This document shows, piece by piece, positions 15,201 to 63,277 of a DNA stretch of 64,000 nt. The stretch is taken from positions 10,900,001-10,964,000 of the forward strand of contig NC_083512.1 in the NCBI RefSeq assembly GCF_032362555.1, read 5' to 3'. Numbering within the stretch: the stretch's first letter is position 1; every line of letters begins with the position of its first letter. The stretch is from Amyelois transitella. Lineage: Eukaryota > Arthropoda > Insecta > Lepidoptera > Pyralidae. The position numbers were made by a program, and so were the translations under genes. The notes beneath the pieces were generated by a model. The model was not told the origin of the DNA. It ran no database searches and saw only the letters and a list, made by a program, of their open reading frames with translations.

Positions 15201-17268
15201 AACACCTGTTAATAATAAAACTAACAGCATGTCAAGCACGACTGTAGTTAGAATGAGTTCTAATTCTCTAACCACGTCTCCTTCGACTAAACACAAGACT
15301 TCGTTAAAAAAATATGTAACCTCATTCACAACAAGTACTTTAATACCTGTTTTCAATGCGACAGAACGAATAACATCACAATATTTTACAACAAAACAAA
15401 ATTCTGAAGGGAAACTGAATAATATAACACAATCATCTGCAAGAAATGGATCGTTTGAAGCGAAGACAGAAGAGAAAACTAACATTACTAAACATAATGC
15501 ATCAAATGTTAATTCTAAGTTTAAAACAGTGACTGCCAAACCTGACCAAGATGAAGAAACGTTTCATATTTTGACAGAACCGGAGCATATAACTGCAGTT
15601 ATGGGTGATAAAGAGTCTGAGAGGAGCTCAGTGGACCTTATATCGGTGATAAGCATAGCTGGAGGTATAATGATGGCTGTCATAACCGTAGCGGTGATCA
15701 TCGTGATGATAGAGAGGTGCAAGAGGCCGAGGTATGAACATGTGAGGAAGATCAGTGATATGAGAATGCAAGTTATGATCGATAATAATGATGTGCCGCC
15801 TCCATATGTGAGGAGTATTTTCCATACGCCTTTACCAGGTAATTATTGCTTAATTACATACATATAATCTCGTCTTATCCTCTGCGGGTAAGACAGAGCC
15901 AACAGTCTTGAACTGACAAGAAAATATAAAAATACCACGTTCTGCTGTATGGCTTAATAATAAAAATAAAATTCTAATATTGACAAGTTGCTAGACTATC
16001 GCCTACAAGAAGAATGCCCATTTTATGAGCCATTCCCTTAGTTACCTATTACGACATCCACGGGAAAAGTATGGAGTAGTGCTAAACTAAAGTGTTCGGA
16101 ACCACACGGCACAATTACTATTATTGCAAATTTTCTGTTGTAACTGGCAATGATCTTCCTAGTGTCAGTCCGTCGTTACCTCAATATAGAGGAGCCCGAG
16201 GTGCCCTATAATTATGATTGGGTCAGGTTCTTACATAAAACAACACTCGTATATCTGCCATAATTATTATTATGTTATTCGGGAAATAGTAAAGTTAAAT
16301 AACATTATGTTTACGTACATACTTACATCTATCACGTTTTTATTCCTAACGGACGTGTCTAGACAGAGACAATCAGATATTTAATGTACCTTAAATAATG
16401 ATTTTATTTTCATTTCATTAACTGTTGATTCTACCTGTTGTCTACCCCGCAAAGGATAAAGACGTATGTAGACGGTGTATGTATGTATACTATAGACATA
16501 TAAGGGTTCCTTGTTTATCCGGAACCCTAAAATAGATGAATAAATAGTAAATAGACAGACAATAATGAAAATCGATTTCCTGAACTCACTATCAAAGGAA
16601 ATAAAAAAGAAGCAGTATTTCAACAGTATTGATATCGGCCCATTAGCTCAGTTGGTTAGAGCGTCGTGCTAATAACGCGAAGGTCGCGGGTTCGATCCCC
16701 TCATGGGCCACGATTATTTTTATAGTTCTTTATTTTTTTTCAGATCCTCCAACAACAGAGAAATGCCATTATCAACCAATTTCAACTCTTGACCGAAACC
16801 TAAAACAATTTATGAGGCCCGTCGTCGTACAAACAATTTCGCCTATAATGCTAGAAAACTTTAGAGGTGAGTTGTTGCTTGGTAAATAAAAAGTAGATTA
16901 TATCTGAACTTAGACTAATATATAATAATATTTCAATCATTATTTTATATTTTAACAATTAATTTTACGTTCAAGGTATACTGGAATGCCATTATGATCA
17001 CTTGCCTCAAAGGAGCCATGATTTCGGAACGATGCCAGCGCGATTTTCCACAACGCCATCTATGCCAGACAGTGGTGAACTACGTGGATCGCGTGCTCTC
17101 TCAGTAACAGAATCAACAATAGAAGCTTTAAAGTGCGAGGCAAAATTAGATGTAATTGACAACACTACTTCTGAACCTCTGTATGCCGAAATTCCCTGCT
17201 GGAGACCGCCTTCTGAACATGCTATTGAAATAATTAACATGAACGGAGAAGCTGTGACAGAGTTATGA
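9255..17268 (+). CDS. nimA: NimA-like transmembrane receptor (gene A): EMI region, CCPGY motif, EGF, Thr-rich stalk, TM
   Basis: Seven coding exons, all phases closing to 853 aa: 9255-9379, 9864-9990, 12118-12229, 13722-13842, 14178-15838, 16744-16866, 16976-17268. A signal peptide (about 1-33) leads to an EMI-like region with conserved Cys and the LEWCF stretch, then CCPGY in exon 3. One Draper/MEGF-type EGF with CVCQDGWQG spans exons 4-5. A Thr/Ser/Lys-rich, mucin-like stalk of roughly 475 residues comes next, then one membrane helix (about 647-673) and a tail of about 180 residues with PPPY (near 701) and YAEI (near 826). EMI plus CCxGY plus EGF plus TM is the NimA layout; Draper would carry many EGFs. 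Family knowledge suggests a phagocytic or scavenger surface role in haemocytes; ligands are unknown. An upstream in-frame ATG was used because the signal peptide needs it; a second in-frame ATG lies at 9264. The symbol rests on architecture only. Confidence 0.8.
9448..9632 (+). mobile_element. SINE copy in gene A intron 1
   Basis: GTGCCGTGTGGTTCCCGGC head, deleted middle, GATATAGACGTGATA end. Confidence 0.8.
11728..12104 (+). mobile_element. SINE with a second SINE nested in its tail, at gene A exon 3 acceptor
   Basis: A + strand SINE (11728 to about 11990) is interrupted in its tail by a truncated - strand SINE, bracketed by ACCGTATGT repeats. The whole is flanked by a 12-bp duplication TGTTTGCTTTCA at 11716-11727 and 12105-12116. 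The right duplication is the polypyrimidine tract and acceptor of gene A exon 3. Confidence 0.9.
12625..12825 (-). mobile_element. SINE copy in gene A intron 3
   Basis: Antisense copy from AATCAAGTCTATATCCC to TTTTACGACATCCATG. Confidence 0.8.
13098..13325 (-). mobile_element. Diverged SINE copy in gene A intron 3
   Basis: Recognised by CCTTTGCGGGGTTGACAGAG and TTGCTAGCTCATCGCC landmarks. Confidence 0.75.
13868..14114 (-). mobile_element. SINE copy in gene A intron 4
   Basis: Near-complete antisense copy ending 63 bases before the exon 5 acceptor. Confidence 0.88.
15857..16112 (-). mobile_element. Diverged SINE copy in gene A intron 5
   Basis: Begins 18 bases after the exon 5 donor; ends GGAACCACACGGCAC. 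Confidence 0.8.
16637..16710 (+). tRNA. tRNA-Ile (AAT anticodon), nested in gene A intron 5
   Basis: A 74-base cloverleaf: acceptor stem GGCCCAT pairs with ATGGGCC, box A TAGCTCAGTTGG, anticodon loop CTAATAA reading AAT, box B GGTTCGATCCC, and discriminator A. A T5 run follows within 10 bases and could serve as the Pol III terminator. It sits in the sense direction, 33 bases before gene A exon 6, so its trailer overlaps the pyrimidine tract of the exon 6 splice acceptor. All stems look intact, so it is probably functional and not a SINE head. Confidence 0.93.
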
Positions 17269-22909: not shown

Positions 22910-25843
22910 TCAATCAAAAATATTCAAATCTGAAGTCGATGAAGACGATGATAATCTTTTTACTGGTCTCCTCTTGACTTTAGTTTTGATTTCCTGTTCA
23001 CTGTCACTGTTACTTTGTTCATACTTTTCAAGTAATGCAGTATCAGGGTTATCAAAAAATGAACACGAGGGAGTGTTGAATTCAATGAAGTTTTCATACT
23101 TTTCCAGTAGTGATTTGGGGATCATTGATGATTCCTGTCCAGTTTCTTCTTTTTGATTATTCATTCCAACGGGAGATTTGGATGTTGAGGGCTTAAGAAC
23201 TGATATGTCAATGTTTTGGATCGAGTGTATTGATAGTTCAGTTATAATACTACTTCTTTTCTTTGGATGTTTCTTTTCTTTGGATGGTTTGGGACGTAGT
23301 ACCAACTTCTCTGTTAGTTGTATTGGACGCAGCTGTGCCATATTTGTAGTATTTACAAAAGTAGGTAATTGAGTCTCAGTTAAATCATGAAAACCTAAAT
23401 GTTTGCCGTGAGGGCACATTACGATTTTATTTAGGCATTCTCTTTCAACACAGGATAGATGACGAAGTGCCAAACGGTTCCCCGACTCTTTAGACCAAAC
23501 CACTTGGTGAACTTTCATAGTTCCCGCAAACGTTTTCAAGTCTTTGGGCAAAAGCCAGTCTTTTTCTGTTATTTGATAATCTTCAACTACTTCGATTTTC
23601 ACGCCTTGAACAAAAGACTTTAAGTTTTGTACTAGTACTTCAATATTGGTAATATCATGTTGATATGCGACCTGTTTATCCAGCGTTCTCTTTAACACCC
23701 CACCCACTCCGTCTGCTGCGCTTTTTCCATGGCCGCACTCGCAATAGTTCCATACTATGTGGGTCAGCATTGGACAATAGGAAGACAGTTGTGATATTAT
23801 GTATAATATCTTTTTATTCCGGTATTGGGCAGACGGAGAGTCAGAAATAATGTAAAGATTGCGGACTAGAGGCGCAGTTATTTCAATTTCACGCAAAATA
23901 GGAACAAGATGCGCCCAGACTGCTGCAGCATCATGCCTTAATGATGTACTTACAGTACAAAAAGATTGAGTTTTGCAAGTTTCATTGTTCAGTTTAAAAT
24001 AAATTACAGCAGTGTGTAACGTAAATTGTTTTCTGCTGCCACCAAAATGAAGAGACTGAATTTCGGATCCATATTTAGTGGTATAATTTTCACTAAAATC
24101 TATTTGTATAATGCAGTCTTCTGTAGTCATATTTTCTTTTAAAGTCTTAAAAGCTTGGTTTTGGTTTTTATTATTAAGGCAATGTTGAAGGAATGCTTTC
24201 AGGCTGTTTTCAAATTTTTTAATCAGATCTAGAGGTTTTACCCAGTGTCTTACCTTTTCAACTTTAATAGCAGATTTCTCTACACTATTTTTGGTGTATG
24301 TACTTTTGTTCTTCTCCCAATTCCAATACGTTACGTGTACTCCATTATCAAACTCTTGGTAATCAATGAGTCTACTTTTACAGTTCGAGCATGTTCTTTG
24401 CAGACAATCGATGTTATCTTTACTACAACATAGGCTGTTTAAAACGTCGGATATTGTGTTTTCTTTGATCAGGCGATTTCTTTTCATCGATTCAATCAAA
24501 AGTTTCATATTTTCATGCTTTTCACATAAACATGTGTTTCGTGCATTCACATTTGGTTGAATAATCCAGAAAGGTTTCAGTCTTGAAAATGTTGAATAGC
24601 TTATCGGTGGTTCGCCTGATTTTAGATATTTCAAGTGTAAATTTTTAAGTGTGTCTGTCATTAGTCTCTTTTGTTTTTTTAAGCCATGTCTTGATATAGT
24701 GTCATTTTTGCCAGGACAAATTGTTGAATTTTCATCGTCTTCTAAAAATGTTACAACCCTCGTGAGATATTGTTTTTTTTTCTTATCAGATTTAATAACT
24801 ACTTCTGTTTTTTTTTCTACTTTTTGCGTATTTTTTTTCAAATTTATATAACTGCTTTGTAGTCTATTACACCTTTTTTTGAGCATTTCTTTTTCCCGAG
24901 AGACCTGTAATAATTTATTTTGTAATTCTGTTATTAGCTTATTTTTAGTTCTTTGATATATGCGGAATTTATCTTTAAGCGCTCGCCTTAATTCTACAGA
25001 TGTAATTGACGATTCTGACACAGGGCTGTTGGGGCAAAGTGTTGACTCAATACTACTCAGATTTGATGGAGATGGTATTCGTTGTGCGCTACTTGGTAGT
25101 ACACAAGGAGTGGTAGTTACTACGTTGTCGTAAATATGATGTTGAACATCGGAACTGACGGAACTATCACTGTTCATCCGCAAGCAGCGCCGTATCATGC
25201 TGCAACGAGTAGGTCTTAGAGATGAAGATGGGTAGTCTTGTCGTGAAGTACTTGGACCAGGATTATTATTGTCTACAAAATTTCGATGCCTTGAGAGCGG
25301 GGTTTGTCGTGGACTGCTTGTGTATATAGGACGAGAGGTTGTAGTCGCTGTATGTTGAGGTTGGATATTCGTACTGATGCTACTTCTACTGTTCAATCGT
25401 AAGCTGTGCCTCAAAGTATTGCAACGGGCAGGTCTTGCAGTCGAAGAAGGTGAATCTTGACAGGAAGTGCTGAGTCCAGGATTATTAATATCCTCACCAA
25501 TTTGATTTGTTGAAGATTGTTCTGGATGATCTTGAACTGTTCCAACTAGAGAGTTTGCACGAGTAGCCGTAGGAGCCGTAGTGGCTCTTTTTTTTTTTCT
25601 TTGGTAATAAGCGGCAGCACTTATGTTGTTTCTTCTTCTTAAGTTTCTTAATTTGGTCTTGTTCATTTGATGCCTTGAAACAATTAATCCTGCTGCTTTC
25701 TTTCTTGCATATCTTTCTCTATCTTTTTTCAGAAACTCTTCGCGTGTCTCTGCATTGCTCTTTATTCTTTCTTTTCTCCTTCTTTCGTACAACCTTCTTT
25801 TTTCTAACCTTTCTTCTCTAGTCTGTGTTCTTGGCCGAGGCAT
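22910..25843 (-). CDS. Intact DDE-type transposase-like protein, 977 aa
   Basis: A single uninterrupted ORF. Residues 1-90 are very basic (MPRPRTQTREERLEKRR start), a block typical of an insect/fish multicopy transposon family that I recognise but cannot name. A low-complexity Ser/Thr-rich linker follows, then a probable coiled coil (about 285-345), a Cys/His cluster (CLCEKH; CSNC) that could bind zinc, and a core with three conserved acidic sites: D582 in DFSENY, D668 in SDSPSAQYRNK and D711 in GKSAADGVGG. The tail is charged. The 86- and 43-residue spacing is compatible with a DDD/E nuclease but catalysis is inferred. Intactness and the flanking motif clusters suggest a recent autonomous DNA transposon; a domesticated host gene is the alternative. 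Superfamily not assigned. Confidence 0.8.
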   Translation of the reverse strand: MPRPRTQTREERLEKRRLYERRRKERIKSNAETREEFLKKDRERYARKKAAGLIVSRHQMNKTKLRNLRRRNNISAAAYYQRKKKRATTAPTATRANSLVGTVQDHPEQSSTNQIGEDINNPGLSTSCQDSPSSTARPARCNTLRHSLRLNSRSSISTNIQPQHTATTTSRPIYTSSPRQTPLSRHRNFVDNNNPGPSTSRQDYPSSSLRPTRCSMIRRCLRMNSDSSVSSDVQHHIYDNVVTTTPCVLPSSAQRIPSPSNLSSIESTLCPNSPVSESSITSVELRRALKDKFRIYQRTKNKLITELQNKLLQVSREKEMLKKRCNRLQSSYINLKKNTQKVEKKTEVVIKSDKKKKQYLTRVVTFLEDDENSTICPGKNDTISRHGLKKQKRLMTDTLKNLHLKYLKSGEPPISYSTFSRLKPFWIIQPNVNARNTCLCEKHENMKLLIESMKRNRLIKENTISDVLNSLCCSKDNIDCLQRTCSNCKSRLIDYQEFDNGVHVTYWNWEKNKSTYTKNSVEKSAIKVEKVRHWVKPLDLIKKFENSLKAFLQHCLNNKNQNQAFKTLKENMTTEDCIIQIDFSENYTTKYGSEIQSLHFGGSRKQFTLHTAVIYFKLNNETCKTQSFCTVSTSLRHDAAAVWAHLVPILREIEITAPLVRNLYIISDSPSAQYRNKKILYIISQLSSYCPMLTHIVWNYCECGHGKSAADGVGGVLKRTLDKQVAYQHDITNIEVLVQNLKSFVQGVKIEVVEDYQITEKDWLLPKDLKTFAGTMKVHQVVWSKESGNRLALRHLSCVERECLNKIVMCPHGKHLGFHDLTETQLPTFVNTTNMAQLRPIQLTEKLVLRPKPSKEKKHPKKRSSIITELSIHSIQNIDISVLKPSTSKSPVGMNNQKEETGQESSMIPKSLLEKYENFIEFNTPSCSFFDNPDTALLEKYEQSNSDSEQEIKTKVKRRPVKRLSSSSSTSDLNIFD

Positions 25844-26217
25844 CCTAAAATAAAAAGAAACACAGTTCCTTTTTACTTACTTTCACACACAAAAACATAT
25901 ACACGCTGTACATACCTAGTTTCCCTAATATACCTTCAAATATACCATGCATTTACATTAGCTCTCTCGCAATGGAGAAGTTCAATGATGTTAAAAATAC
26001 AACATCATAAAATTAAAATATATGTAGATCTGAACTAATCAATAAACTGATCTAATGAGTGTTTTTTTTTTTTAAATTCATCAATATAGGTATGATTGAT
26101 ATATGGATTATAAAAGATTGTGTTTTTTCGCGAAACGACTACCTACCTACACATAAAAGTATCTAGCAAGGTAAGTTTAAAAAAATATCTCGAGGATCTC
26201 TAAAACTTTTAACGGAT

Positions 26218-27315: not shown

Positions 27316-30300
27316 ATGAAAGGTCTATTAATTATATGGGCTATAGCAGCCTGCGCGTACGCAGTCGACTCAGATGATGTCCAATCAGTAAAGTCTGTCA
27401 AGGGAGGTCTTTCTCGGTACATTTATAAGGGAGACAACAATATTTCTAGGTAAGGTTTTCTTACATTCAATATTACAGACATATTAATGTATATTTAATT
27501 AGACTAGACTCCTACGGTGATAAATATTGCTCATCACGTATTCTTCCTTCCATTTTTTATATTTGTGCAGTGTGGTTACCGGCACAAATTAAAAAAAAAT
27601 AAATAGCATCATCCTATCTCTAATGGATGTCAATGTGTAAAGGCGACTAAGGGATAGATAGGCGTATAAACTTGGGCGTCTTCTTTTAGGCGATGGGCTA
27701 GCAACCTGCCACAATTTGAATCTCAATTCTATCATTAAACCTAACAGCTGCACGTGGCCTATCAGTCTTCAAAACTGTCGGCTCTATCTACCCCGCAAGG
27801 GACATAGACGTGATTATATGTATGTATTACTTATATACTGTTATTATGACTTAGAAAATTAAAACTATCAAGCGGTGTGTAAGTGACAAAGATTAATAAC
27901 AATCTATTAAGATTTCTATTATGTTTTAGAGAGCGCTTTTTGTTTCAGATTCTATAACAGCCGGCAGTTCAATTTGACAAAACATAAGGATGTTGAAGAA
28001 ATAGGAGTTTGTTATATAGAAATACCGTAAGTATTCATACATACGCCTCTTGGAAAAGACTTTCAGATTATCTTAACTTGCCTCGAAGTCTGCATACTTT
28101 ACCCAAAATTTACGTTAAAAAAATATCGTCTAAGGTGTAATTACGGTTTAATTTCTTTTTCATATAGTGACTATACCCCAATCTTTTCATTGATAATAAT
28201 ATAATTAAGACATTATATAATTATAAATACTCTAAGACTTTTTTTTGATGAACTTCAGATGTATAAAAATCGAAAGATAACACATGTCTGACAAAAATTC
28301 TGACGCCTGTGACCTGTGTTGGCCACTTGCTCATACGATAAACGAACATATGCCTTATGAATCGATCAACTAACTCTAAGGTCTTCTGAACGTTCGTGCT
28401 TAACCCTAACCCATCTTGCTTTTTATGACCCATCTTTATACAAGCCGTGTGGTTCCCGGCACAAATAGAAAATAAGAATAGGACCACGCCATCTGTTTCC
28501 CTTGGATGTAGTAAAAGGCGTCTAAGGGATAGGCTTTTAAACTTGGGATTCTTCTTAGGCGATGGGCTAGCAACTTGTCACTGTTTGAATCTCAATTCTT
28601 TCATTAAGCCAAACGGCCAAACGTGGTCTATCCGTCTTTTCAAGATTGTTGGCTCTGTCTACACCGTGAGGGATAAAGACGTGACTGTATGTATGTATGC
28701 ATGTATCTTTATAGACTCTCTAAAGTAACAGAAACTGTGAATAAAAAAAAATTATTATTCCATTTTTTTCAGAACAGCCCAATTAGTTCAAGATCAAAAT
28801 CATGTGCCAGCTGGTAATGGGGTAAGTTAATAAAGAAATCATGCATCAGATCCAAGGAATTTCCTTTGTTAATAAATATCGCTATGTTATAGGTACTATC
28901 ATTGAAATAATGCATGCTAAATCTCTAGGTATTATGAAAATGTTTGGTTGAAATTCAACTTCAAAACTGCCTACTACAATTTTGTCCAATAAATTAATTG
29001 CATACATAATAACATAAATTCTTACAATAAGACACGTTAGTTTTACCTACTTCACTATACATAGTAACATGCATTACCATCTTTTTGAATCCAAAAAAAT
29101 ACATTCCTGTATTCCTGTTAATCCTGAATTTACATTATCTTTTTATTCCTTTCCAGTCACGCCCAGAGCTGTCTAGAATCCGAAGCTGCTGCCACGGCTA
29201 CGCCAGAAACATCCACGATTTCATGGTCTGCGAGCCGGTCTGTTCCAAGGGCTGCATCAACTCCCTCTGCGTCGCCCCAGAGACCTGCCAATGCTACCCT
29301 GACTACGTCAAGAATTCTGCAGGCTTTTGTACCGCTACCTGCCCTATTGGATGCCAGAATGGAAGATGTTCTGGTGGCGAATGTATTTGTAACTCTGGAT
29401 ACAAATTAGACTCGGAAAGCAAATATTGTGTGCCGAGTTGCAAAGATGGGTGCGGTGGGTCAGGTAAGACTGATATGTGAATCCTTTTAAATGAAAAGGA
29501 ATACTGAAGACAGACGGCTGCTTGTCATACTAGTTTAGGTATCCCTAGAATTAAAATTACCACAAACATCGTGGTTAGTGGTCTATGCCGTTTAAAATTT
29601 AAAAATTGCTTCTTATTCGTATTCCTATAATACTGTAATTTCCTAAAGATTCCTCTGTAGTATCATTGAATTAGTAATACAAGTGTCAAACTCACTGCAC
29701 AGCAACTCAATCTATATTATTTGTCCGTCTAGTATTTATATCTGTTCTGTTTTAATTTAACTTCTTTTTTCTCCAATGTCAAAGTTTGTCCATAATGCTA
29801 TTACTACTAACTCGCTACTAACATGATGATATTTTTCAGGAAACTGTACAGCACCAAACACCTGTACTTGCCAGCCAGGTTACCAGTCGACTCCAGAAGG
29901 CTCTTGCAAAGCCTCTTGTGAACATTGCGAGAACGGAGAATGTGTCGCCCCGAACAGATGTAATTGTCGTACTGGTTATAGTAAAGATCCACAAGGAAAA
30001 TGCAAGCCACAATGCACTCCGTAAGTTGCTAAATTTTATTGAGGTTTGAACAATTTACTCGTAAATACAAACGACATCATTAAATATTCATTTCCAAAAA
30101 ATTATCTAAGTAAATGTTCCGCTTTTTTTATTTCAGTGCCTGCCGATCTAATACCAACTGCATCGCTCCAAACGTGTGCTCAGCTCCCTCTGAATTCTCT
30201 CCGCAAAATCATGGTCTACCACTTAATGTAATGCCACTTCATCCAGAAAATCAAGTGAATAATACAACACGCCCACTACAACCAAACACAAACCATTATC

Positions 30301-32295
30301 CTAATCCATACAATCCAAATTACCCACAAGGTCCATATTACCAATATCCAGGAAATAATCCAAATTATAACACACGGAATCTTTCAAATGGATCACATGA
30401 CAGCTCCTATAGTCAACAAGGTCAAATATCGCAACGGCCCGATGAAGGCTTCTATTTCAATCAGGGAAATTACCCTTATCCAGGAGGCCAAAATCCTCAA
30501 CAAGGAATTGCTTCACCAAATAATACATTATATCCTTCTCTACCAAGATCAGGACAAGAATCAAATCATTATCCGGGTAATAATTATCCAGGAAATAATC
30601 CAAATTATAACACACAGAATCTTTCAAATGGATCACATGACAGCTCCTATAGTCAACAAGGTCAAATATCGCAAAGGCCCGATGAAGGCTTCTATTTCAA
30701 TCAGGGAAATTACCCTTATCCAGGAGGCCAAAATCCTCAACAAGGAATTGCTTCGCCAAATAATACATTATACCCTTCTCCACCAAGACCAGAACAAGAA
30801 TCAAATCATTATCCGGGAAATAATTATCCAGGAAGGCCATATCAGGGCAATCAATATCCAGGCGGTCAATATCCAGAAAATCAATATTCAGGGAATCAGT
30901 ATCCAAATGGTCCACATGTTCATCAAAATGAACCCAATTCTTCTCAACCACATAGAGGAGACATAGATTCTGATAGTAATCAAGGCTCTCGATCAACATC
31001 GCCAAATAACACCATCCATGGATACCCATATCCTGGATCAAATCGCAACCCAATTTACCAAGAATCGAACTCCTATTATGCTGGTGGCCGTCAACAAAAT
31101 ACTTCTTTTAACTCTATGAACCAATATGGCTCTAGTTCATATGACTCATCAGATCAAAGACATGGTCAAACATATCAAGGATCATACAATAGATCTCAAC
31201 AAGAATCACACGACTCCAGAAACCAGAGAAATTTCGATTCGACGCAGCATCAGTCATATGATATATCTAACCAAAGATCATATGATTCATCGCATCGTGA
31301 ATCTCATGATTCTTCTCAACATGGTCAATATGGATCGGAATATCAAAGTAATTATGGAAATTTCAACCGCGACTCTCAGAATTCTTCAGTCTTTGGGCAA
31401 CTTGATGCACATCATCACAATTATTCAAATCAAGATACCCAACATTCTAATCAAGGCCTTCAACATTCTTCCAACCAAGACACGCAAAACTCTTATCATC
31501 ACGGCAATAGCTCTTCAAATCAAGGCTCAACACAGTATGGGTCTTATGATTCTTCAAGACGGGAATCTCTAGACTCTACAAATCAAAGAAATCACCAAGG
31601 TTTTGACAGAGCCAATCAAGCAACATACCCTTACTTCAATTCGGGCAGTAATCCCAGAGAAGCTCCTGAAGTATCTAATCAGGTTGCCAACCAAAGTGTT
31701 GATAACACTGGTCACACTTATGTTCACGGTTTCGCAGATAGATTTGATATAGATAACAAAGAGAATATAGACCAACAATCTGCCGATGTGCCAGTGTGTT
31801 CAAAGGCTTGCATTAACAGCTATTGCGTTGAAGGGAACGAATGCCGATGCAAGCCGGGATACATCCCTGACAGGACAAATCTAAGCGTGTAAGTATAATT
31901 GTTTTTTTTTTAATAACCCTTACAAAAAGCCAAGTAGTTGTCACAGTTTCAGTAGGCAAATATTCACAACTACAACAGCATTATTTACACCTTACGAAAT
32001 GTAGTCCAGAGTCTTAAATCTGAAATCATCTGGAAACACCAATTCATTAAGTTTATGGTCAATTCTTTTACTAATCTTATTCTCCCTCTTGTTAATTCCC
32101 CTACATTGATGGAATTACTTGTGTAAACTTCTTCATATGTAAAGCTTCTGCAAAATTTCCAGATGCCAGCCACATTGCCCTGGAGGGTGTCCTAATGGAG
32201 TATGCTCTGGCCCCAGACTTTGCCTGTGTAATGCGGGCTACTACAAGGATACGAGTGTCAAAGGGAGACAAGTATGCGTAAAACGAAACAGATAG
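27316..32295 (+). CDS. Secreted NIM-repeat protein with long N/Q/S/Y/P/G-rich insert (gene B)
   Basis: Seven exons closing to 877 aa: 27316-27449, 27949-28026, 28773-28821, 29157-29463, 29840-30020, 30137-31888, 32163-32295. A signal peptide (1-16) is followed by a charged segment, then CCHGY at about 98-102 and NIM-type repeats of the CxxxCxNGxCxxxxxCxC kind across exons 4-5. Exon 6 interrupts the array with about 540 residues of low complexity: first YPGGN/NYPG-rich, then DSS/NQ/SYDSS-rich, including an 80-residue tandem duplication. Two further NIM units close the protein in exons 6-7. There is no membrane segment, so it should be secreted, as NimB proteins are. The YPGG/NQ tract is unusual for the family and could drive self-assembly (inference). 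A TTTTTCAG acceptor just before the ATG suggests an upstream noncoding exon. Confidence 0.85.
27565..27833 (+). mobile_element. SINE copy in gene B intron 1
   Basis: Head GCAGTGTGGTTACCGGCAC to (TATG)n; moderately diverged. Confidence 0.85.
28444..28708 (+). mobile_element. SINE copy in gene B intron 2
   Basis: Complete: GCCGTGTGGTTCCCGGCAC to GTATGTATGCATGTAT. Confidence 0.88.
30347..30830 (+). repeat. 240-bp in-frame tandem duplication in gene B exon 6
   Basis: Two copies at a 240-base period (80 codons), each running from GGAAATAATCCAAATTATAA to the GAATCAAATCATTATCCGGG region. They differ at a handful of bases, so the duplication is recent or kept uniform. Confidence 0.95.
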
Positions 32296-32458: not shown

Positions 32459-32812
32459 ACCGTGTGGTTCCCGACACCAATAAAAAAAAGAATACGACCA
32501 CTCCGTCTCATTCCCATGTTTTTTTTTTCGTAATGTAAAAACATAAAAAATAAAGAATAGGACCGGCACCAATAGAAGAATAGGACCACTCCGTCTAGTT
32601 TCCATGGATGTCGTAAAAGGTGACTAAGGGATAGGCTTATAAACTTGGGATTCTTCTTTTGGGCGATGGACTAGCAACATGTCACTATTCGAATCTCAAT
32701 TCTATCATAACGCCAAACAGCTGAACGTTGCCTATCAGTCTTTTCCAGTCTGTTGGCTCTGTCTACCCCGCAAGTGTTATAGACGTGATTATATGTATGT
32801 ATGTAAAAACAT
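32459..32812 (+). mobile_element. SINE with duplicated head, downstream of gene B
   Basis: Two heads in tandem (32459-32522 and about 32562-32620) before a single body and tail. This suggests one SINE inserted in another, or an internal duplication. Confidence 0.8.
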
Positions 32813-33382: not shown

Positions 33383-36300
33383 ATGGCGTCAAAGCTTTTG
33401 GGCGTATGCTTCGTTTTCATCGCTCTGAATTTTTGTGAAACTTATCTAAATGGAATTTGCACAAGGACTGAATGGTAAGAAAATATTATAATTGTCTCAT
33501 TTTGCATGTGATTTAACGATATTTTTTAAAAAATATACATAGATCTAACCTAATCAATATCGATAGTACATTTGGAAAACGTTAACTATATACGTTTATT
33601 GAATACAATAACATTGAGAAATTTTATCAGCTAAACAATACGTATATAAATAAAAAATATATATATTATGATTATTTATTAAACTTAACTTAATATTACT
33701 TAAGACGGCCTCTGTGGCGCAGCGGTAGTACGCTTGTCTGTGACACCGGAGGTCCCGGGTTCGAATCCCTGCCAGGGCATGATGATAAAAGAACTGTTTC
33801 TGATTTGCCTGGGTCTTGGATGTTTATCTATATAAGTATTTATTATAAAATATAGTATTGTTGAGTTAGTATCTCGTAACACAAGTCTCGAACTTATTTC
33901 GCTAACTCAATCTGTGTAATTTGTCTCGTATACATATATTATATCAAACTAAAAATAAAACTACTATATTAAATTAAAGTTGACTTTCTAAACAACAAAT
34001 TTATGAAATATATTATTGAAATTCAGACCCCTTGGTAGGATTCCCATCACGCAGGCAGCATTACTTTCAAATTTAGGTAGTTTGTGAAGTGAAGTTGAGA
34101 TTTGTAGCAAAGCCTTATTACAGCACGTGAGAGATCTGTATTTGTAAATTGACATTGTATTGTATTTAATCATACAAACATATGGTCACGTCCCTTGCGG
34201 GGTAGACGGAGCCAACAGTCTTGACAATACTGAATGGCCACGTTCTGCTGTTTGGCTGTATAATAAAATTGAGATTCAAATAGTGACAGGTTGCTAGCCT
34301 GTCGCCTAAAAAAGAATCCCAAGTTTGTAAGCCTATCCCTTAGTCGCCTTTTACGACATCCATGGGAAAGAGATGGAGTGGTCCTATTCTTTTTTGTATT
34401 AGTGCCGGGAACCACACGGCACGGCGTTTTTAATCAGGTACTCTAAACCGTTCAACCACAGACTTATTAATACACCAAACTTTTGCAGGACAAGTGTTCC
34501 CAGACAGGTGATGAAAACAAGATCAGTGAAGTATCAAAAGAAGCCATGCTTTTTCAGATGTTGGAATACGAGACGAGAGTATTATAAAGTTACGGAGAAC
34601 CAGAGGGTAAGAATTTTCATTTACAGTTTCCATTATAATCAATATTGAAATAAAGCTACTTCGTTGTTTTTATTTCAATGTCTTGTTGTTTGAGTTCTTG
34701 TTATGTTAATGACTCATTTTACATGATCACGCTGTGTACGCTAAAGTTGGACATTTTTCTTGTTCACTATATATATGTATGTATGTCTACATTTCCTAAG
34801 GATAATTATGCAATTTTGTAATGTGTCTGTATGTGTATCTTAATAAATAAATAAATATAAAAGACCGAAAGGCCACGTTCAGCTTGATGGAATTCAGAAT
34901 TCTCAATTCTATATAGACGTGATTATATGAATGAATGATTAATTGTGAATTTTTTGTTCGGATTTGCAAACTTAGTTTTTACCTAACAGATTGTAAATTT
35001 TCAGCAACGACGTGTTTTATATGAATGCTGCAAAGGTTACATACAAATTGGAATAAGCTCTAAGTAAGACAACATTTTTCAAAAAACTCTAACGATACAA
35101 CTATTTACTTTATAATTACTAACGACAACGATAGAAGATGTAATTACAGGAATAGAAAAGGGTATGTTAAGATAGTTTGGTCATGTGGAGAGGATGAATG
35201 AAAGCAGGTTGACTTAGCAGATATACAAGGAGATTGTGGAGGGAAAGGTCGGAGTGGGAAGGCCTAGACGAACGTATCTTGATCAAATTAAGGACGTCCA
35301 AACAAAGGGTCAGGTCAAGAGTACCCGAAACCGCCGAGCTTTCATGAAGAGTTATGAATGTGGATGAAGCGAAGGAAGTATATCTGCCTACTTGGAAGTA
35401 TGCAGAGATACTTCCTTCGCTTCATCCACATTCATAACTCTTCATGATAGCTCTTGATCGTGACAAGTGGAAAGATGAAGTCTCTGCCTACCCCTCCGGG
35501 AAAGAGGCGTGATTTTATGTATGTATGTACTAACGACAAACTCTTCCACAGGTCATTCCCACAATGTGTTCCACAATGTGAACCTTCGTGCAGAAATGGG
35601 ACGTGTATAAGTCCAAATAGATGTGAATGTCATCCAGGATATAACCTTCAATATGGAACATGTTTACCAGTTTGTTCTTGTGACTTTGGAACTTGTGTGG
35701 AACCATGGTCCTGCGAATGCTTTACTGGATATAGGATGACCGCTGTCAATGTATGTTCTCCTGTATGCTCTAGTGGATGCTATAATGGAACTTGTGTTAG
35801 TCCAGACGTCTGCAAATGTGATGATGGATGGGAACTGATAAATGGAAATACATGTGTTCCAAAATGTTCAACTTCATGTCAAAACGGCACCTGTGTAGCT
35901 CCGGATACATGTGAATGTGATTCAGGAAATGAATTCGTTAATGGATCATGTCAAATAATTGATACAGAGGCGAACACTTCTGAAACAACAACAAATTCAG
36001 ATAACGAGGATTATGAAAATGTCACAGAAGCTGAGCTATCAGATGATCCAATAGATAATACGACTGTGTCTAATGATTGTTTAAATGATAGTTGTTCGAG
36101 TACGGAAAAGAACAAAGAAGAACATAGTTATTTTAATGTTACTTCTGATTTAGCCCAGCCATATGAAGATCACAAGTAAGTGTGTAGTTATTTGTTTATT
36201 AACCATTACGTAGGTACAGATTCTCGTCTGTATCTGTATTACTAATTGTTGAGAGATACAAAATCGGTCAGCTACGTTGATCAAACTTTTGCTCTAAATC

Positions 36301-37201
36301 GTACCTACTGGCGACACTTTTTCAATCAATAATACGAAATTTGGCCTAGCCTTAGTGAAGAACTTAATGTTCTCAAAATTTTACACATAAATAATTCTCA
36401 GTCCGATTTTAAACGGGTATAACACTAATAATACCTATAGATAGATGCTTTCTTTGTATACATATGTATATAGAGGTTTATATACATATAAATCTTGATT
36501 TAATAGGAGAAAGGACGACAATTTATACATTTACTTTCGAATAACTTTCAGAGCCCTGGATTGGATATATTACTATGTGATTCCTGCTTTGGTTCTCATT
36601 TTGATCCTCATCATAATTCTGGTATGGAAAAAAACATCAATATCTAATCATTTCACTGGAGGTAGTTATATTGTAGAAGGTATGAGTGATTTATATTTGC
36701 AAAAAATATGAATATCAAACTAGACTGCAGTGACGTTCTTGGAATTTTACATACATACGCGTCTTATACCTTGCGTAGTAGAGCTACCAGTATCGAAATA
36801 TTTAAAGGCCACTTCAGTGTCCAGATGGCTTAGTAATGGAATTGTGATTCAAATAGTGATAATTTCCTAGCTCATCGCCCAAAAGAAAAAAATCAAGATA
36901 TACTTACTTAAACTCTTGATTTACTCTTACAGTCTAAGAAGAAAAATAAGCATACAGAGCACTCTTTTAATTTTCTTATTATTCAATTTTCTTGTTAAAA
37001 TTAATTACTTAGCCTTTCAGTCAGGTGTAAGTTGTAATAAGATTCCATAGTTATATTTGATCAATATGTAATTATTCTCCTACTTTCATTAAAATTTTAA
37101 TTGCAGGTGATAAGAAAAGTGCTCCAAACAACATAAGATTATCTGATATAGCAGAGATCAAAGGGAAGGATAAAAGCAATTGGTGTTACGATGAAATTTA
37201 A
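33383..37201 (+). CDS. Transmembrane NIM-repeat receptor with four NIM repeats (gene C)
   Basis: Six exons closing to 371 aa: 33383-33474, 34489-34606, 35005-35063, 35552-36175, 36552-36679, 37107-37201. It has a signal peptide (about 1-20), a short basic EMI-like part, and CCKGY at 78-82. Four NIM repeats in exon 4 follow (CEPSCRNGTC, CSCDFGTC, CSSGCYNGTC, CSTSCQNGTC), then an acidic Thr/Asn-rich stalk with several N-glycosylation sites, one membrane helix (about 304-324) and a 47-residue tail. Length and four-repeat plus TM layout resemble Drosophila NimC4/SIMU, the apoptotic-cell receptor, but orthology is not shown here. It is tandem with gene B (1.1 kb gap) and convergent with gene D. 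Intron 3 carries a LINE next to the exon 4 acceptor. Confidence 0.85.
33707..33940 (+). mobile_element. tRNA-derived SINE in gene C intron 1
   Basis: The head has box A TGGCGCAGCGG and box B GGTTCGAATCC (33758-33768), followed by a non-tRNA body ending CAATCTGTGTAATTTGTC. A different family from the dominant SINE. A related 3' end is at 29655-29740. Confidence 0.8.
34173..34423 (-). mobile_element. SINE copy in gene C intron 1
   Basis: Near-complete antisense copy ending GGGAACCACACGGCACGG. Confidence 0.88.
35129..35527 (+). mobile_element. RTE-like LINE copy with internal inverted duplication, in gene C intron 3
   Basis: LINE 3' end with (TATG)n tail. A 12-bp duplication TACTAACGACAA at 35117-35128 and 35528-35539. 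The right duplication ends 12 bases before the acceptor AG of gene C exon 4. Without the insertion the intron would be about 77 bases. Contains the foldback at 35342-35447. Confidence 0.9.
35342..35447. repeat. 40-bp perfect inverted repeat inside LINE
   Basis: Arms 35342-35381 and 35408-35447 are exact reverse complements (starting TCATGAAGAGTTATGAATGT), separated by 26 bases. Normal LINE sequence resumes after the right arm. Confidence 0.95.
36748..36900 (-). mobile_element. Degenerate SINE in gene C intron 5
   Basis: Tail and body landmarks only (TACGCGTCTTATACCTTGCG; CCTAGCTCATCGCCC). Confidence 0.6.
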
Positions 37202-37557: not shown

Positions 37558-40500
37558 TTAACCTGTAGGTCTTGGTTCCAATGGATCCTCTCCAAGCTCA
37601 ATGCCTTCGTTATTCTGATTTTGGGGCAAAACTGTAAAGTAATCATAATGTAACAGTAATTTACAATTGGGTCGAAATTCATATTTCCGTATCAATCGGT
37701 CAGTTTTATTTTTTAAATTGTAACGAATAAATCCAAAATATTGGACCAATATTTACGATATTTGACAAATGAACTATACCTTCAGGTAACATACACACAC
37801 GTCGCGTCTTTACATCTAAGGCACGAAGGCTTCATTTTGGCATGTAAATTTTGAGAAAGTGACAGGTTTCAAGCCTGTCTATCGTAAGTGAGCATTTTGC
37901 TTGATTCACTTTTACAATCTACCAATATGATCTAAGGCCCGATAACATAGGGTACTTTACATCTTTTTCTCAGTATATCAATGTCCACTAGTCTAGGCGG
38001 CGGTTCTAGTCCAAGTCAGCCCTTGTCGTTAGACCAACTGGCTGTTAGTTCGCTTCTTTTACCTATCCGTAGTCACTAAAAAAATAATTTTCTGGCTTCG
38101 TCTCTCGTCATCTCTGGGGCAGATTTGTCCAACCCAACGCCATTTGAGGAAGGAAACTCGAGTATCGATATTGGTGACTTTAGTACGTTGGCGTATGATC
38201 TCATTTTTAACTCGGTCTCGCTTTTCATGTTTCTTTATGATTATTATCATTTGTTCGAGATCTAAAATACCTTTTATCTACTAGTCAACAAAAAGAAGTA
38301 GTAGTTTTAGAGCTAAGAACAGTCATGAATCACATGAGAACAGCTTACCATAAACGCCCTTTTGTCTTCTATAAATAATTTTGCTTGCCCATATAACGGT
38401 GAGTGCAAGCAGTATAGACACAAATAATATAACAACAACTTTCCGTCGTTCATCTACAGATTTAGTGTCATGTTTACTGTAAAAAATAGGAAAATGTAAA
38501 ATGAATTCTTGGAAAATGCGTTTCACACACTTTTTATCGAATTTTAGATGTACAGTCCATGGGATCACGCCATTTAACTCAAAGGGGTAAAGAAACTTCT
38601 TTTTTTGCTGCATTCACATCCACTATTTCTTTTCAAGCGAGCTCATTTTTTACACTTTTTACTTTAACTATCACCAGAACATCCCAGACTAGATCACGGT
38701 ACGTACGTCTGAGCCTGTCTCTTTCTACGGTACCATTTATTCCTTCCTTCCAAAAATTACTATTGATAATTTACTATCTATATCTGCTTTGATAATTTTC
38801 AATGTTTATTTTATAAAAATACTTGTGGTACTCACTATACTAATGTAACATTAGTGTTGTAACTATAAAGTTTGAGGGGCATATCAGAAGTATCCTCTTC
38901 TGATTCATCATAATAATCTTCATCGTCACTTTTTTCAGTACCGTTTTTAGTTGATTCGTTTGCATTTGCTACTAATCTGCAAATTATAAATGTTATTTTA
39001 TATAAAAGGTAAAAATAAATATGAATGTTCATTGCATCACCATAAAAATATTTTAAGTGAATTAAAAAAAACGCATCAGAGCATGTGTTCGTGTTTATAT
39101 GTTTAAGTACATAATTGTCGGTTGGCTGCAAGTTTCTAATCGTAAAAAAAATTATCGATGTTTTTATAGGAACCCAAGTAAAATGTTTAAACTTACTCGT
39201 CATTAATATTAACATCGTCCTCAGATGTATAGATAAGTAAATCTTTATCTTCTGCATCAAAAGAATCTGTAGAGTTTTCAGGCCTAAAAATTGTCTTTAC
39301 TTTTTCCGTAATGTCTTCAATTGTTTTAACGTTCCCTAATGCTGCTTTCGTTGTTGAGAAGGTGGGAGTTAGACTTACAAATGGCAAAGTCATATCTGTA
39401 TCCATTATAGACTTGTTTTGCCCAAAATAAGAATCTGTAGCTGTGGTTTTTGATGACTTAATAAATGACTTAATTCGCTCCTTATTTTGAGCATCACCTA
39501 TTCCTTTGATATCATCAACCACTGAAGTAGATTTTGCAAATAATGGTGTTACTTTTCGCCCACTAAAAAGGATGGTGTTATTTTTTATATCTAAAGAATT
39601 TGTAGTTGGAGATTGTATTTTTATAGTTGGTTTAATCATAACATCAGTAATCTCTGTCGTATCCATTTTTGTTGATACATACTCAAATTCAGTAGAAATT
39701 TTCTTTGTTGATAATTCAACTGGTTTGTATCGGAAAATGGTTTCATTTTTAAATTCATAGATACTGCTTCTCTTGGTTGTTGATCTAACATGACGAAATA
39801 TTGTATCTTCCTTTTTTGTGAAGTCTGAAGTTGTAGGTCTCTCTATTTTATTTTCAAAGTCCATATCAATTTCTTTAGAAAAATTATTACTGCTATTACT
39901 ACTTTTACTTTCAAGTGTTAGCGATTCTGTGATGTTTTTAACGGTCGACTCTTCATCAGAAAATACCATAGTTTTAGTAACGTTTGCTTGCCTTCCGCTT
40001 TTGTTAGTAATTATTTTTGTTTCCATTGGAGAAGTTATCGATTCTGTTACAACTGGAATCGTATGGTTATTTTCTCTTGTTGTCTTTATTTCATGTTCGA
40101 CTAGCATCGTTATTACTTTTGTTGAGCTGTCTACTAGATTCAAAATATCTGATTCACTTTTATGCACAGTGCTTCTTTTACCGTCTGTAGTTATATCATC
40201 TAAAGTGGACATAGTTTCCAAAGTAACATTATCAGTAAGATTATTAATTTTCATGGGCATTCCAGTTTTATTATCTTCCGTTGCATTAACATTTGGATTT
40301 TCTTCTATCTGATAGTACCTATGAAAAGTTCATACTTTTAGTTTATAACCTTAATAACAATTTATGTACTTGTACGTATTTATACTTACCCAACGTAAGG
40401 GCAAAATGTTTCCAAGATGACGCCAAATAACCTGAAAATAATAAAAGACATACATAATAATTAAACAAATATAATACTTTATTTAACCATAAGAGATTTA

Positions 40501-43018
40501 CATACTTTAACAAAATTGAAACTAATAGAATAGAATACATTTATTTTCAAAATTGGATACAAGGTATAACTAATTGACGTCACATCACTTTAATCTAATT
40601 ATAACTACTACCGCTTCCAAAGCGCATGTGAAGAAGTTCCTGAATGCGCAGCAGTTCCTGAGATAAGCGCGTTCAAACAAACTCTTCAGCTTTATAATAT
40701 TAGTATAGATTCATACATATCATCACGTCTATATCTTTTGCGGGTTAGACAGAGCTGATAGTCTTGTTGTTAAAACGACTGAAAACCACATTCAACTCTT
40801 TGTCTTATAATAGAATTAAGATTCAATTAGTGACACGTTACCCGCCCATCGCCTAAAAGAAGAATCTCAAGTTAACCAATAAATGTCTCAGAAAACATAT
40901 ATAGGAATGATGATCACAAGATAGTACACAGTTTCTGCTTGTTTGCAAAGAAACCTCTTCCAGCCTCTAAGCTTCCAGCAGACCCAAAACAAGAGACATA
41001 ATGGAAAGAATGACATACCCATTTCAAGGATCTCGCAAAACCTCTTCTCCCGGACTAAAGCTAGAAGCATAAAGGATGAAGGAAGTTTGAAGATGCGGTT
41101 ACGACGCCACGATTTTGCTAGCTATGACGAAAATATTTATTAACATGTTAAAACTCACGAATCAGGCTCCAAACTTGAATTTTCAATGGACGCTATAAAT
41201 TTCTCTCCCTGAAATAAAAAGATATACTTAGTATATATGTAAAGAATTTTAATAAAAATCATTAAAATTTTATCATTCCACAACGAACATACCTCTAATA
41301 TTTTTGGATCCCCTTTCAAAAACCTGAAATATATATATGTTTATGTTTTACATGGAACTTTCAACTCAATACTATATAATTTTAACGATTTTCATATTTC
41401 AAAATGAATTATGGATAGTTTTTCTTCTTTTAATGTCTTTTATTTAATGAAATACTTACGGAGGAGTTACAGGAGATGGTAAACTGTATGCATGAAGCTT
41501 TAAAAGAGAAAGGAATGAAAGTGAACGTAAGTAAAACTAAAACACTGGTTTTTGAAATGGAGAAAGAAATGACAGCATGTAATATTTTGATTGGAGGAGA
41601 AAAAGTGGAGCAAGTGAAAGAGTTTGTATATCTAGGATCAAAGTTTACATCAGATGGCAAGTATGATAGTGATATTGAAAGGAGAGTGAACGCGGGGAAC
41701 ATGGTGAATGGAGCTTTGCATGCCTTTATGAGCAGTCAGAAACTATCCAAAAAGGCTCGACTGGCTGTGCACAGGGGCGTGTTGGTCCCGACATTAATGT
41801 ATGGGAGTGAAAGTTGGGTATGGCAAAAGAAGCATGAAAGCAGAATAAATGCAGTGGAAATGAGAGCGTTAAGGAGTATGATGGGTGTGAAATTGAGTGA
41901 CAGGATAAGGAACAGCGTGATAAGGGAATGTTGTGATTTGAAAGAAGATGTAGTTACAGGAATAGAAAAGGGTATGTTAAGATGGTTCGGTCATGTGGAG
42001 AGGATGAATGAAAGCAGGTTGACTAAGCAGATATACAAGGAGAGTGTGGAGGGAAAGGTCGGAGTGGGAAGACCTAGACGAACGTATCTTGATCAAATTA
42101 AGGACGTCCTGGTAAAGGGTCAGGTCAAAAGTACCCGAAACCGCCGAGCTTGTATGAAGAGAGTTATGAATGTGGACGAAGCGAAAGAAGTATGCAGAGA
42201 TCGTGGCAAGTGGAAAGAGGTAGTCTCTGCCTACCCCTCCGGGAAAGTGGCGTGATTTTATGTATGTATGTATGAAATACTTACCCAGAACTTTCACAAG
42301 CTTTATCAAAGTTTATAATTGTTAAAGATCTGAAAATAAATTTCTTTGTTTATTTCAGTAATCTACCAGTCAGTCTTAAGAAAACAGTAGACTGACAATA
42401 CTTAGATCAGGTGTCAATTTATCATACATGCATACATATAGTCACGTCTATATCCCTCGGGGCTACCAAAACTATTGGCTCTGTCTATCACTTTATCGTG
42501 ACATATATACTATGAACATTACAAATTGAAATTCTATCATAAAGCCAAGCAGGTGAACATGGCCTATCAGTCTTTTCAAGACTGTTGGTTCTGTCTACAC
42601 CGCAAGGGATAGACGTGACTATATGTATGTATGTATGTTTTTTTTAACATACCCATTCAACAGCATTACTTCTAAAGAACGAATTTGTCTAACATACGTG
42701 ACCTGAAATAAAAGTCTGAACTAAGTTTCTCTAACTACATTTCAGCTTATTTGACCAAAATGACTAATTAAAAAATACTTGTGTAACATGTTGGTTCTAT
42801 ACAAACATAAAAACACGCCTCTGTCGCGAAGGGATAGGCAGAGACATTACGATCCCCTCACACCTACTTCTTTCGCTTCATCTACATTTTTCAATCTTTT
42901 CATGCAAGTCCTGACCTGATCATTCATCAGAACGTCCTCTAAGTTTTTCTTTTGAAAAATAAAAAAAAATTATTATACTTACAATCAGAATGAAACAAAA
43001 TAATATTTTAATCAACAT
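37558..43018 (-). CDS. Unrecognised Ser/Thr-rich single-pass membrane protein (gene D)
   Basis: Ten exons, all phases closing to 572 aa: 43018-42983, 42702-42653, 42329-42285, 41323-41293, 41208-41159, 40431-40390, 40318-39197, 38976-38836, 38476-38349, 37631-37558. There is a signal peptide (MLIKILFCFILI start), then a small N-terminal module of about 60 residues with two Cys (about C40 and C81) split over five tiny exons. A Ser/Thr/Lys/Asn-rich stalk of about 375 residues follows in one exon, then an acidic patch with two Tyr (DDEDYYDESEED, a possible tyrosine-sulfation site), one membrane helix (about 518-537) and a tail of about 35 residues ending PLEPRPTG. No EGF or NIM repeat is visible and I do not recognise the family. 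Its position among Nimrod genes suggests a surface mucin-like role, but that is only contextual. The donor of exon 3 lies in a LINE target duplication. Confidence 0.75.
40645..40711 (-). mobile_element. Lep1-type Helitron 5' end in gene D intron 5
   Basis: TTCCTGAGATAAGCGCGTTC through TTTATAATATTAGTATAGAT. Confidence 0.7.
40714..40872 (-). mobile_element. Truncated SINE in gene D intron 5
   Basis: ATCACGTCTATATCTTTTGC to CCCATCGCCTAAAAGAAGAA, directly after a Helitron end. Confidence 0.75.
41460..42271 (+). mobile_element. 5'-truncated RTE-like LINE, 3' end of reverse transcriptase, in gene D intron 3
   Basis: An ORF (to 42255) encodes the C-terminal part of a non-LTR reverse transcriptase, with VKEFVYLGSKF, LMYGSESW and MLRWFGHVERM motifs, and ends just before a (TATG)n tail. 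A 13-bp target duplication ATGAAATACTTAC occurs at 41447-41459 and 42272-42284. The copy is antisense to gene D. The right duplication is the GTAAGTATTTCAT donor of gene D exon 3. Confidence 0.92.
42825..42960 (-). mobile_element. Degenerate RTE-like LINE fragment in gene D intron 1
   Basis: Carries AACACGCCTCTGTCGCGAAG, CTTCTTTCGCTTCATCTACA and CATGCAAGTCCTGACCTGAT landmarks of the LINE 3' end, much diverged. Confidence 0.6.
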
Positions 43019-61514: not shown

Positions 61515-63277
61515 TTACGATTGTGTAAACGAGCAGTCCTTTTCAACACATTCTCCATCTCTACAAGTTCCCTTGCATCCATTACAAGGCTTGTAGCAAA
61601 TTGAGGAGTTAGTTCTCTTCACGTACCCGTCATAGCACGAACACACGTTAGGCGCCGTACACACGCCGTTCACACACGTAACATTACATGTAGGTGTACA
61701 CACACCCTTAATTTTCGAAAATCCTTCGCGGCACTCACAGACGTTAGGCTTGATGCACACTCCGTCACATTTATCACATTTCGGTTTGCAGTAACTGTCA
61801 TTCACTTTAAGATAACCGTCTAAACATTCGCATTTGTCTGGTGCTGTGCATTTGGAGTTGACGCATTTTGCGCACACAGGTTCACATGTAGACGCATCCT
61901 TAGCTTTAAATCCTGGCAGGCAAGAGCACGTGTTTGGCGCGACACAATTACCATTGACGCATTTCTCAATACAAATCGGGACACATTCGAAGTTTGAATT
62001 TATTTCGTGTCCCTCTTCGCATTTGAAACAATGCGTTTCGTTGTAGACATTAAAGTCTGTTTTGCAATGACAGGTGTTGTTTTGACCACATTGTGCGTTA
62101 ACGCACGGCGGGGTACAAGTAGGTGTGATGCAGTTTTTCTGTTCTGGATCAAGGTATGAAGGCGGGTCGCATTGGCAGACGTTCGGGGCGGTACAGCGGC
62201 CTCCAAGGCAGCCTGTACATTGCGGGGTACACGTATCCTCCTCGCCGTTGTAGACATAGCCTTCGCAGCAAACTGTCTGATTCGTTGTTATCCAGTACGT
62301 CTGAAATTGAATTGATAATGACATTACAACGCAACATTTTTTATCAAATTTGATATTTCTTATGAATTAGACAAAAATCTTTCTACAAAAAGTAAGAAAC
62401 TCAAATCGGTTTTAAAGCTTTGTTTAACATAATTTTATATGAACTTAATTTAATAAAAAGGCGGAAACTTAAATAACATGAACATTTCTTCATTATTAAA
62501 ATCTTAATGAAGAACTACACATAAAACGCATACGCAAGAGTAAAACCACGGGAAAAGACTTATCCTACTACTACATATAATAAATGCGAAAGTTTGTTAG
62601 GACGTTGTTTTTGTCACTCTAGCACACAAAAACTTCAGATCGTTGAAAATCCGTTAGATATTAAAATAACATAATAAGATAAAATTTATAGAGATTTAAT
62701 GCGTACGAATTCGCCGGCTAATGCTACTATTTCCATAAAACTGACCTCCGGTTTGGACGTCCGGGCGATGCATTTTTTCTTTCCGCACCATTTGTAAAAC
62801 GTGACCACTCTAGTTCGTGTTCTTTTGATACTGAAAAAAAAAAAAAACATTATTTGCCAAAAACACATATTTTTCACTATCAAAAATAATAATTGTTGTG
62901 TAACTAATTTTTACAATTAATTATTTTAATGTGTTTTAGCAAATAAAAATCTATTTTTTTATTTAAAAAATCTATTAACTTTCATCTTAGAAACTCTAAA
63001 ATTAATCGGAAATTAAAGACTTAACGTAACTTTTAAAAACAAGGGTGATATTTAAATTTAATTAAAACAGTAAATAAGTGCCCACTGCGTCTACACGTCT
63101 GCTTAAAATTTTATCTAATTACGTAACAAAATTAAAAATATATTTTATTTTATTTTTTTAAATATTTTCAAATTACCTCGACTTCACTATACACACCCCT
63201 TCGTCACCTGCCTTCAACGCACACAATTCCAAAATACAAAATGTCACGATTAGAAATATCACACATTTCACTGTCAT
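61515..63277 (-). CDS. Secreted NIM-repeat protein, paralogue of gene E (gene F)
   Basis: Three exons closing to 323 aa: 63277-63177, 62830-62746, 62300-61515. It has a signal peptide (about 1-22), a basic EMI-like stretch with paired Cys, CCEGY at 73-77, and about eight NIM units. The third unit (CEEGHEINSN) is degenerate exactly as in gene E, and both share a CYKPC landmark, so the two are tandem duplicates. As read, the frame ends at TAA directly after FTQS with no membrane helix, making it secreted like NimB proteins. The TAA lies inside a perfect donor TC|GTAAGT in the same phase (2) as the gene E exon 3 donor, so splicing to an unseen downstream exon is possible. None with a membrane helix was found between 60 and 61.5 kb. 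Confidence 0.8.

Follow-up and report, generated by a model that had tools for sequence, protein, structure and literature searches.

The analysed window, 64,000 nucleotides of Amyelois transitella contig NC_083512.1 (positions 10,900,001 to 10,964,000 of the forward strand), contains a + strand gene at 27316-32295 whose product is probably, from its sequence and hydropathy, a secreted Nimrod protein of the NimB type, and a Cys-free tract of 539 residues lies between the fifth and sixth of its NIM repeats. The unusual domain layout in a known family is real. The initial annotation had placed about 540 Cys-free residues in a 1752-base exon with NIM cysteines at both ends, and this is borne out by a tract that is in frame with six other exons; that annotation mentions neither a 240-bp tandem duplication nor that the two NIM cysteines flanking the tract are missing. 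From the composition we tentatively favour the possibility that the tract, as a predicted-disordered Gln/Tyr-rich, Lys-poor tether between the Cys-rich arms, is used as a cross-linking substrate in clots or capsules.

30180..31796, + strand: Cys-free N/S/Q/P/G/Y-rich tract of 539 residues (265-803), inside exon 6
30345..30834, + strand: tandem duplication of 240 bp (80 residues), 2.0 copies, inside the YPG half of the tract

Position of the tract and loss of two cysteines

The NIM consensus has been given as CxPxCxxxCxNGxCxxPxxCxCxxGY (PMC4073527, PMC4833078). Seven NIM/EGF-like repeats can be placed in register in the predicted protein, with the six cysteines complete in five of the seven and with five cysteines each in repeats 5 and 6, and a scan with a stricter NIM pattern matched 3 of the 7 repeats. 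Exactly two NIM cysteines are absent, namely the last one of repeat 5 (Ala266) and the first one of repeat 6 (Asp800). Repeat 5 retains its first five cysteines and has CSAPSEF in place of the CxCxxGY of other repeats, with the aromatic residue kept, and repeat 6 has DVPVC in place of CxPxC, with the proline kept; the cysteine spacing of both otherwise matches that of the other repeats. In EGF modules the disulfides pair cysteines 1-3, 2-4 and 5-6. Read in the EGF register, the two absences fall on C5 and C6 of a single module, the fifth, and the tract therefore sits in its C5-C6 loop; the disulfides predicted to be left in this module are C1-C3 and C2-C4. With two losses falling at random on the 42 NIM cysteines, exactly this pair would be affected once in 861 cases (a post hoc figure). 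This suggests one course of events, where the C5-C6 loop was extended by the tract and its two cysteines later disappeared; we infer the order, with growth first and cysteine loss after. Paired cysteine losses are not unique to this gene, since a NIM gene at 51937-53040 on the minus strand has one repeat that lacks two cysteines (by eye the putative third and fourth) and has no tract.

Gene organisation

The gene consists of seven exons separated by six GT-AG introns with fitting phases, giving one frame of 877 residues.

27316..27449, + strand: exon 1, start codon and a hydrophobic signal-peptide-like N-terminus MKGLLIIWAIAACAYA, as judged by hydropathy
27949..28026, + strand: exon 2, GT-AG, in frame
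28773..28821, + strand: exon 3, GT-AG, in frame
29157..29463, + strand: exon 4, CCHGY motif (29187-29201), NIM repeats 1 and 2 and the beginning of repeat 3
29840..30020, + strand: exon 5, last part of NIM repeat 3, then repeat 4 and the beginning of repeat 5
30137..31888, + strand: exon 6, remainder of NIM repeat 5 without its last Cys, the tract, and NIM repeat 6 without its first Cys
32163..32295, + strand: exon 7, NIM repeat 7 and stop, without a C-terminal hydrophobic segment

Exon 6 (1752 nt) has the acceptor tttttatttcag on its 5' side and the donor gtaagtata on its 3' side. The CCHGY motif, at residues 98-102, precedes the first NIM repeat, and CCxGY is described as a Nimrod feature (PMC4073527). 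A Pfam search gave EGF_PEAR1L with an E value of 2.1e-11. The N-terminal segment has the highest 19-residue hydropathy of the protein (1.47, from hydropathy only), and no transmembrane segment was found by hydropathy, the 19-residue maximum beyond residue 40 being 1.21, from residue 109 in a Cys-rich region. With 16 residues removed the predicted mass is 95 kDa, and the cysteines after the N-terminal segment number 44, an even number, so that all could pair.

The closest described counterpart that we considered is AgNimB2 of Anopheles gambiae, a secreted protein with a predicted mass of 44 kDa that is reported to mediate Staphylococcus aureus phagocytosis with no direct binding to the bacterium (PMC4073527). 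Like AgNimB2 the present protein has a hydrophobic N-terminal segment, CCxGY and seven NIM repeats, and shows no transmembrane segment by hydropathy, but it differs in its larger size, in the predicted-disordered tract in its middle and in the loss of C5 and C6 from one EGF module. Residues 1-264 resemble, by their cysteine spacing, the EGF modules of Fibrillin-1 (2m74, E 2e-4) and WNT inhibitory factor 1 (2ygq, E 3e-4), but the aligned stretches of these two have no such insert and the proteins differ overall. In agreement with the initial annotation, which knew of no described Nimrod with this layout, none was found among the listed titles and abstract beginnings in searches of open-licence literature.

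Composition and duplication of the tract

The tract is made up of N (14.5%, 78 residues), S (14.3%, 77), Q (12.1%, 65), P (9.3%, 50), G (8.9%, 48) and Y (8.9%, 48), with 27 H, 27 D, 24 R, no W and a single Lys, to be compared with 19 Lys in the 322 residues of the arms; Q and N together constitute 26.5%. The two halves that had been described from the sequence, one rich in YPGG/NYPG and the next in SYDSS and N/Q, are both recognized, as 245 residues (as cut) rich in N, P, Q, G and Y followed by 244 residues rich in S, Q and N with SYDSS-type motifs, and the tract ends with 50 less biased residues. The motif YPG occurs nine times and SYDS three times in the whole tract.

Part of the tract arose through the 240-bp tandem duplication, the copies of which differ at 8 of the 240 aligned bases, 4 differences being synonymous and 4 replacements, numbers too small to decide on selection between the copies. 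The autocorrelation of the tract shows the duplication at lag 80 and is otherwise weak, and imperfect short repeats of 15 and 30 bases are found at 30806-30904. The GC content at third codon positions (GC3) is 0.237 in the tract versus 0.451 in the remaining coding sequence. There are 16 matches to the N-glycosylation sequon, overlapping ones counted, which is not a convincing enrichment given 11.4 in shuffles, with 156 of 2000 shuffles reaching at least the observed number.

Coding capacity and occurrence in the genome

The tract appears to be translated, and an unspliced intron is unlikely from the sequence. The 539 codons contain no in-frame stop; 2000 shuffles that kept the dinucleotide counts had 23.2 stops on average and not one was stop-free, and the two other forward frames of the tract contain 7 and 48 stops. 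The GC content by codon position is 0.51/0.43/0.24, and no GTRAGW donor was found inside the tract, although one looser GTRNG donor-like site and four modest acceptor-like sites occur. A retained intron is rejected as the principal explanation on the stop, donor-site and codon-periodicity evidence, and the worry about an unspliced intron raised in the initial annotation is thereby largely answered from the sequence, together with the loss of both flanking cysteines; if splicing removed the tract from the mRNA, loss of the C5-C6 pair would not be anticipated. The wider idea that the tract is absent from the mature protein, through intron retention or mis-assembly, could draw on the low GC3, on the splice-like sites mentioned and on the fact that errors can occur in assembling low-complexity DNA with a 240-bp duplication, but in view of the open frame, the periodicity and the lost cysteines we consider it very improbable. 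The assembly also contains the complete tract a single time, but it is the very sequence analysed here and hence gives no independent proof.

In a search of this assembly (327,366,114 bases in 33 contigs, where the window is C8:10900001-10964000) with an E value limit of 0.001 no second copy was detected, the only match being the tract itself. Within the window, blastn and tblastn likewise matched the tract alone, plus its tandem copy in blastn, and an origin from a mobile element or a paralogue was rejected on the basis of these searches. No match was obtained in the PDB up to an E value of 1, and the Pfam match to Spectrin_2 (E 0.1), which is under the cut-off of that family, was judged to be due to chance and rejected as a known domain. 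Six peptide patterns gave no match in viral contigs.

The window has 78 open stretches that are 80 codons or longer, and among these the Q/N density of the tract, 26 per 80 residues, is the highest; the second value, 18, comes from an overlapping frame of the tract DNA and the remaining stretches have 15 at most. The Cys-free gaps in three other NIM open frames (35451, 51937 and 61515) do not exceed 42 residues. Another long stretch free of Cys does occur in the window, a gap of 512 residues in a 616-codon frame at 14017.

Disorder and aggregation

No positive control accompanied the PAPA, FoldIndex, AGGRESCAN and Q/N analyses. The FoldIndex-type score is below zero at all 27 sampled tract positions. 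AlphaFold2 run on the single sequence of exon 6 gave a pLDDT below 50 in 556 of 583 residues including nearly the whole tract, and block means of 61 and 73 for the EGF after the tract, low confidence being weak evidence when no alignment is supplied and exon 6 holding only part of EGF5.

In the initial annotation the tract was called prion-like, silk-like and self-assembling, and it was suggested to form secreted aggregates or nets around microbes. A prion-like domain is expected to have at least 30 Q/N in 80 residues, or a PAPA score above 0.05 in a disordered region. The Q/N maximum of 26 means that no 80-residue window of the tract reaches 30, and the PAPA score has its maximum of 0.062 at residue 570, barely above the cut-off, and is below zero at 25 of the 27 sampled tract positions. 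An AGGRESCAN-like scan gave no hot spot within the tract, 7 of the 8 hot spots of the protein lying outside it and the eighth (VCSKA) only starting at the last tract residue. Evenly spaced aromatic "stickers" were considered and rejected, because a variance equal to or below the observed one was seen in 744 (first half), 223 (second half) and 511 (entire tract) of 1000 shuffles. There was no sign of a silk family or of regular short repeats in the PDB search up to E 1 or among Pfam matches over the cut-off, leaving the silk-like label without family support. Taken together the tests support a low-complexity, predicted-disordered tract rich in N, Q, S, Y, P and G, and speak only weakly for prion-likeness.

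A self-assembling or phase-separating domain would be in line with the Q+N content, the Tyr content, the single Lys and the PAPA peak near residue 570, and there is a precedent for an extracellular amyloid scaffold in moth immunity, the P102 protein of Heliothis virescens haemocytes, although that is a different protein (PMC11818254). Both are moth immune proteins, and the scaffold role reported for P102 is a guess here; P102 is termed an endoribonuclease-U domain protein in a cited title and is likened to the present protein by description only (PMC11818254). The Q/N, PAPA and AGGRESCAN-like results and the uneven aromatic spacing stand against self-assembly, as do the 9.3% Pro and the 16 sequons, which may bear glycans and, if glycosylated, would probably oppose aggregation. 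We regard self-assembly as unlikely.

A possible cross-linking tether

The protein is laid out as Cys-rich arms of about 248 and 74 residues linked by the predicted-disordered tract. With 65 Gln, 48 Tyr and 1 Lys placed between arms that hold 19 Lys, the composition would suit a cross-linking substrate. The arms might bind partners, such as opsonins attached to microbes, receptors on haemocytes or further proteins of the clot; the Gln residues of the tether could serve as substrate for a haemolymph transglutaminase that joins them to Lys of other proteins, and the Tyr residues as substrate for phenoloxidase or a peroxidase. The NIM arms would in this manner become covalently anchored in the clot or capsule that surrounds a wound or a microbe. 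A bolder version, which we hold to be rather doubtful, is that a soluble Nimrod was turned into a two-headed cross-linkable polymer when the fifth of its EGF modules lost one disulfide in accommodating a 60-kDa disordered Gln/Tyr tether, and that it acts as a haemolymph scaffold tying Nimrod binding sites into clots and capsules, with self-demixing or aggregation also possible.

In haemolymph immune complexes of the silkworm, stabilisation by transglutaminase cross-links and an association of phenoloxidase have been reported (PMC5310873). Fondue, a protein of the Drosophila clot on which transglutaminase acts, resembles the present protein as a secreted substrate cross-linked into the clot, a role that is only proposed here, but is described as Drosophila-specific, and the likeness concerns the proposed mode of action and not the sequence (PMC11300172). 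A Nimrod-like transcript, which may or may not correspond to the present gene, was up 3.3- and 6.7-fold in elicited haemocytes of Heliothis virescens (PMC4553588). A silkworm protein called "glutamine-rich" has been proposed to have a role in transcription (PMC8914287).

Several points weigh against the cross-linking tether. The word "nimrod" is absent from the main text of the silkworm immune-complex paper (PMC5310873), secretion is predicted from hydropathy, the equal numbers of synonymous and amino-acid-changing sites between the duplicated copies suggest that the precise sequence may be under little constraint, and the GC3 of the tract is far under that of the rest of the coding sequence, as in lightly constrained sequence. 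The last two points are also expected if replication slippage and tandem duplication have enlarged a permissive surface loop, so that the tract is an inert spacer that merely separates the arms or is tolerated. This explanation, which also fits the random aromatic spacing and the lack of a significant family match for the tract, accounts about as well as a cross-linking tether for the duplication, for the replacement changes and for the low GC3, and is nearly as likely. It is less at ease with the loss of both flanking cysteines and with 539 codons that contain no stop, Cys or Trp and one Lys, but a composition bias alone could explain part of this.

Neighbouring loci

Further NIM arrays are located on both strands of the window, which from the sequence looks like a Nimrod cluster. 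Upstream on the + strand, a locus at 12148-15867 has CCPGY and, at 13751-13831, an EGF/NIM-like motif, and it includes the 616-codon open frame at 14017, which is Thr/Ser-rich with 8.0% Q+N and 2.1% Tyr and has, by eye, a hydrophobic segment near its end. It looks like the locus of a Nimrod-type receptor that spans the membrane and carries a mucin-like stalk, perhaps NimA-like. The next gene downstream of the tract-bearing gene, at about 33384-36711 (+), has CCKGY (35026), NIM repeats at 35451-36179 followed by an acidic tail, and a strong hydrophobic segment in the open frame 36499-36711, and probably encodes a membrane-bound NIM receptor. The NIM arrays on the minus strand are those at 51937-53040 (EGF_PEAR1L, E 2.5e-27) and 61515-62366 (EGF_PEAR1L, E 2.8e-18).

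A 988-codon open frame at 22910-25876 (-), which matched no Pfam family over the cut-off and nothing in NCBIfam at E 0.01, is possibly derived from a mobile element, and the 273-codon open frame at 41434-42255 (+) is perhaps a fragment of a LINE (long interspersed nuclear element), showing a weak NCBIfam match to reverse transcriptase (E 0.0017; its score is 17.7 bits, where the cut-off is 200). A Ser/Thr-rich, Cys-free open frame of 378 codons at 39193-40329 (-) gave no Pfam match up to E 0.1. Similar sequences resembling a SINE (short interspersed nuclear element), variants of tgtggttcccggcac..., were seen by eye in and around the tract-bearing gene in both orientations, at about 27570-27830, 28440-28700, 32460-32790 and 34190-34430.

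Implications for the Nimrod family

To our knowledge the mode of action of secreted Nimrods is unsettled. The gene offers a clean example of a very long insert taking the place of one disulfide pair in an EGF module, and a Nimrod with a built-in disordered tether would suggest a role as structural glue besides recognition. If the tract is indeed a substrate of transglutaminase or phenoloxidase, the Nimrod family would be tied to clotting and melanisation, in a way that is directly testable.

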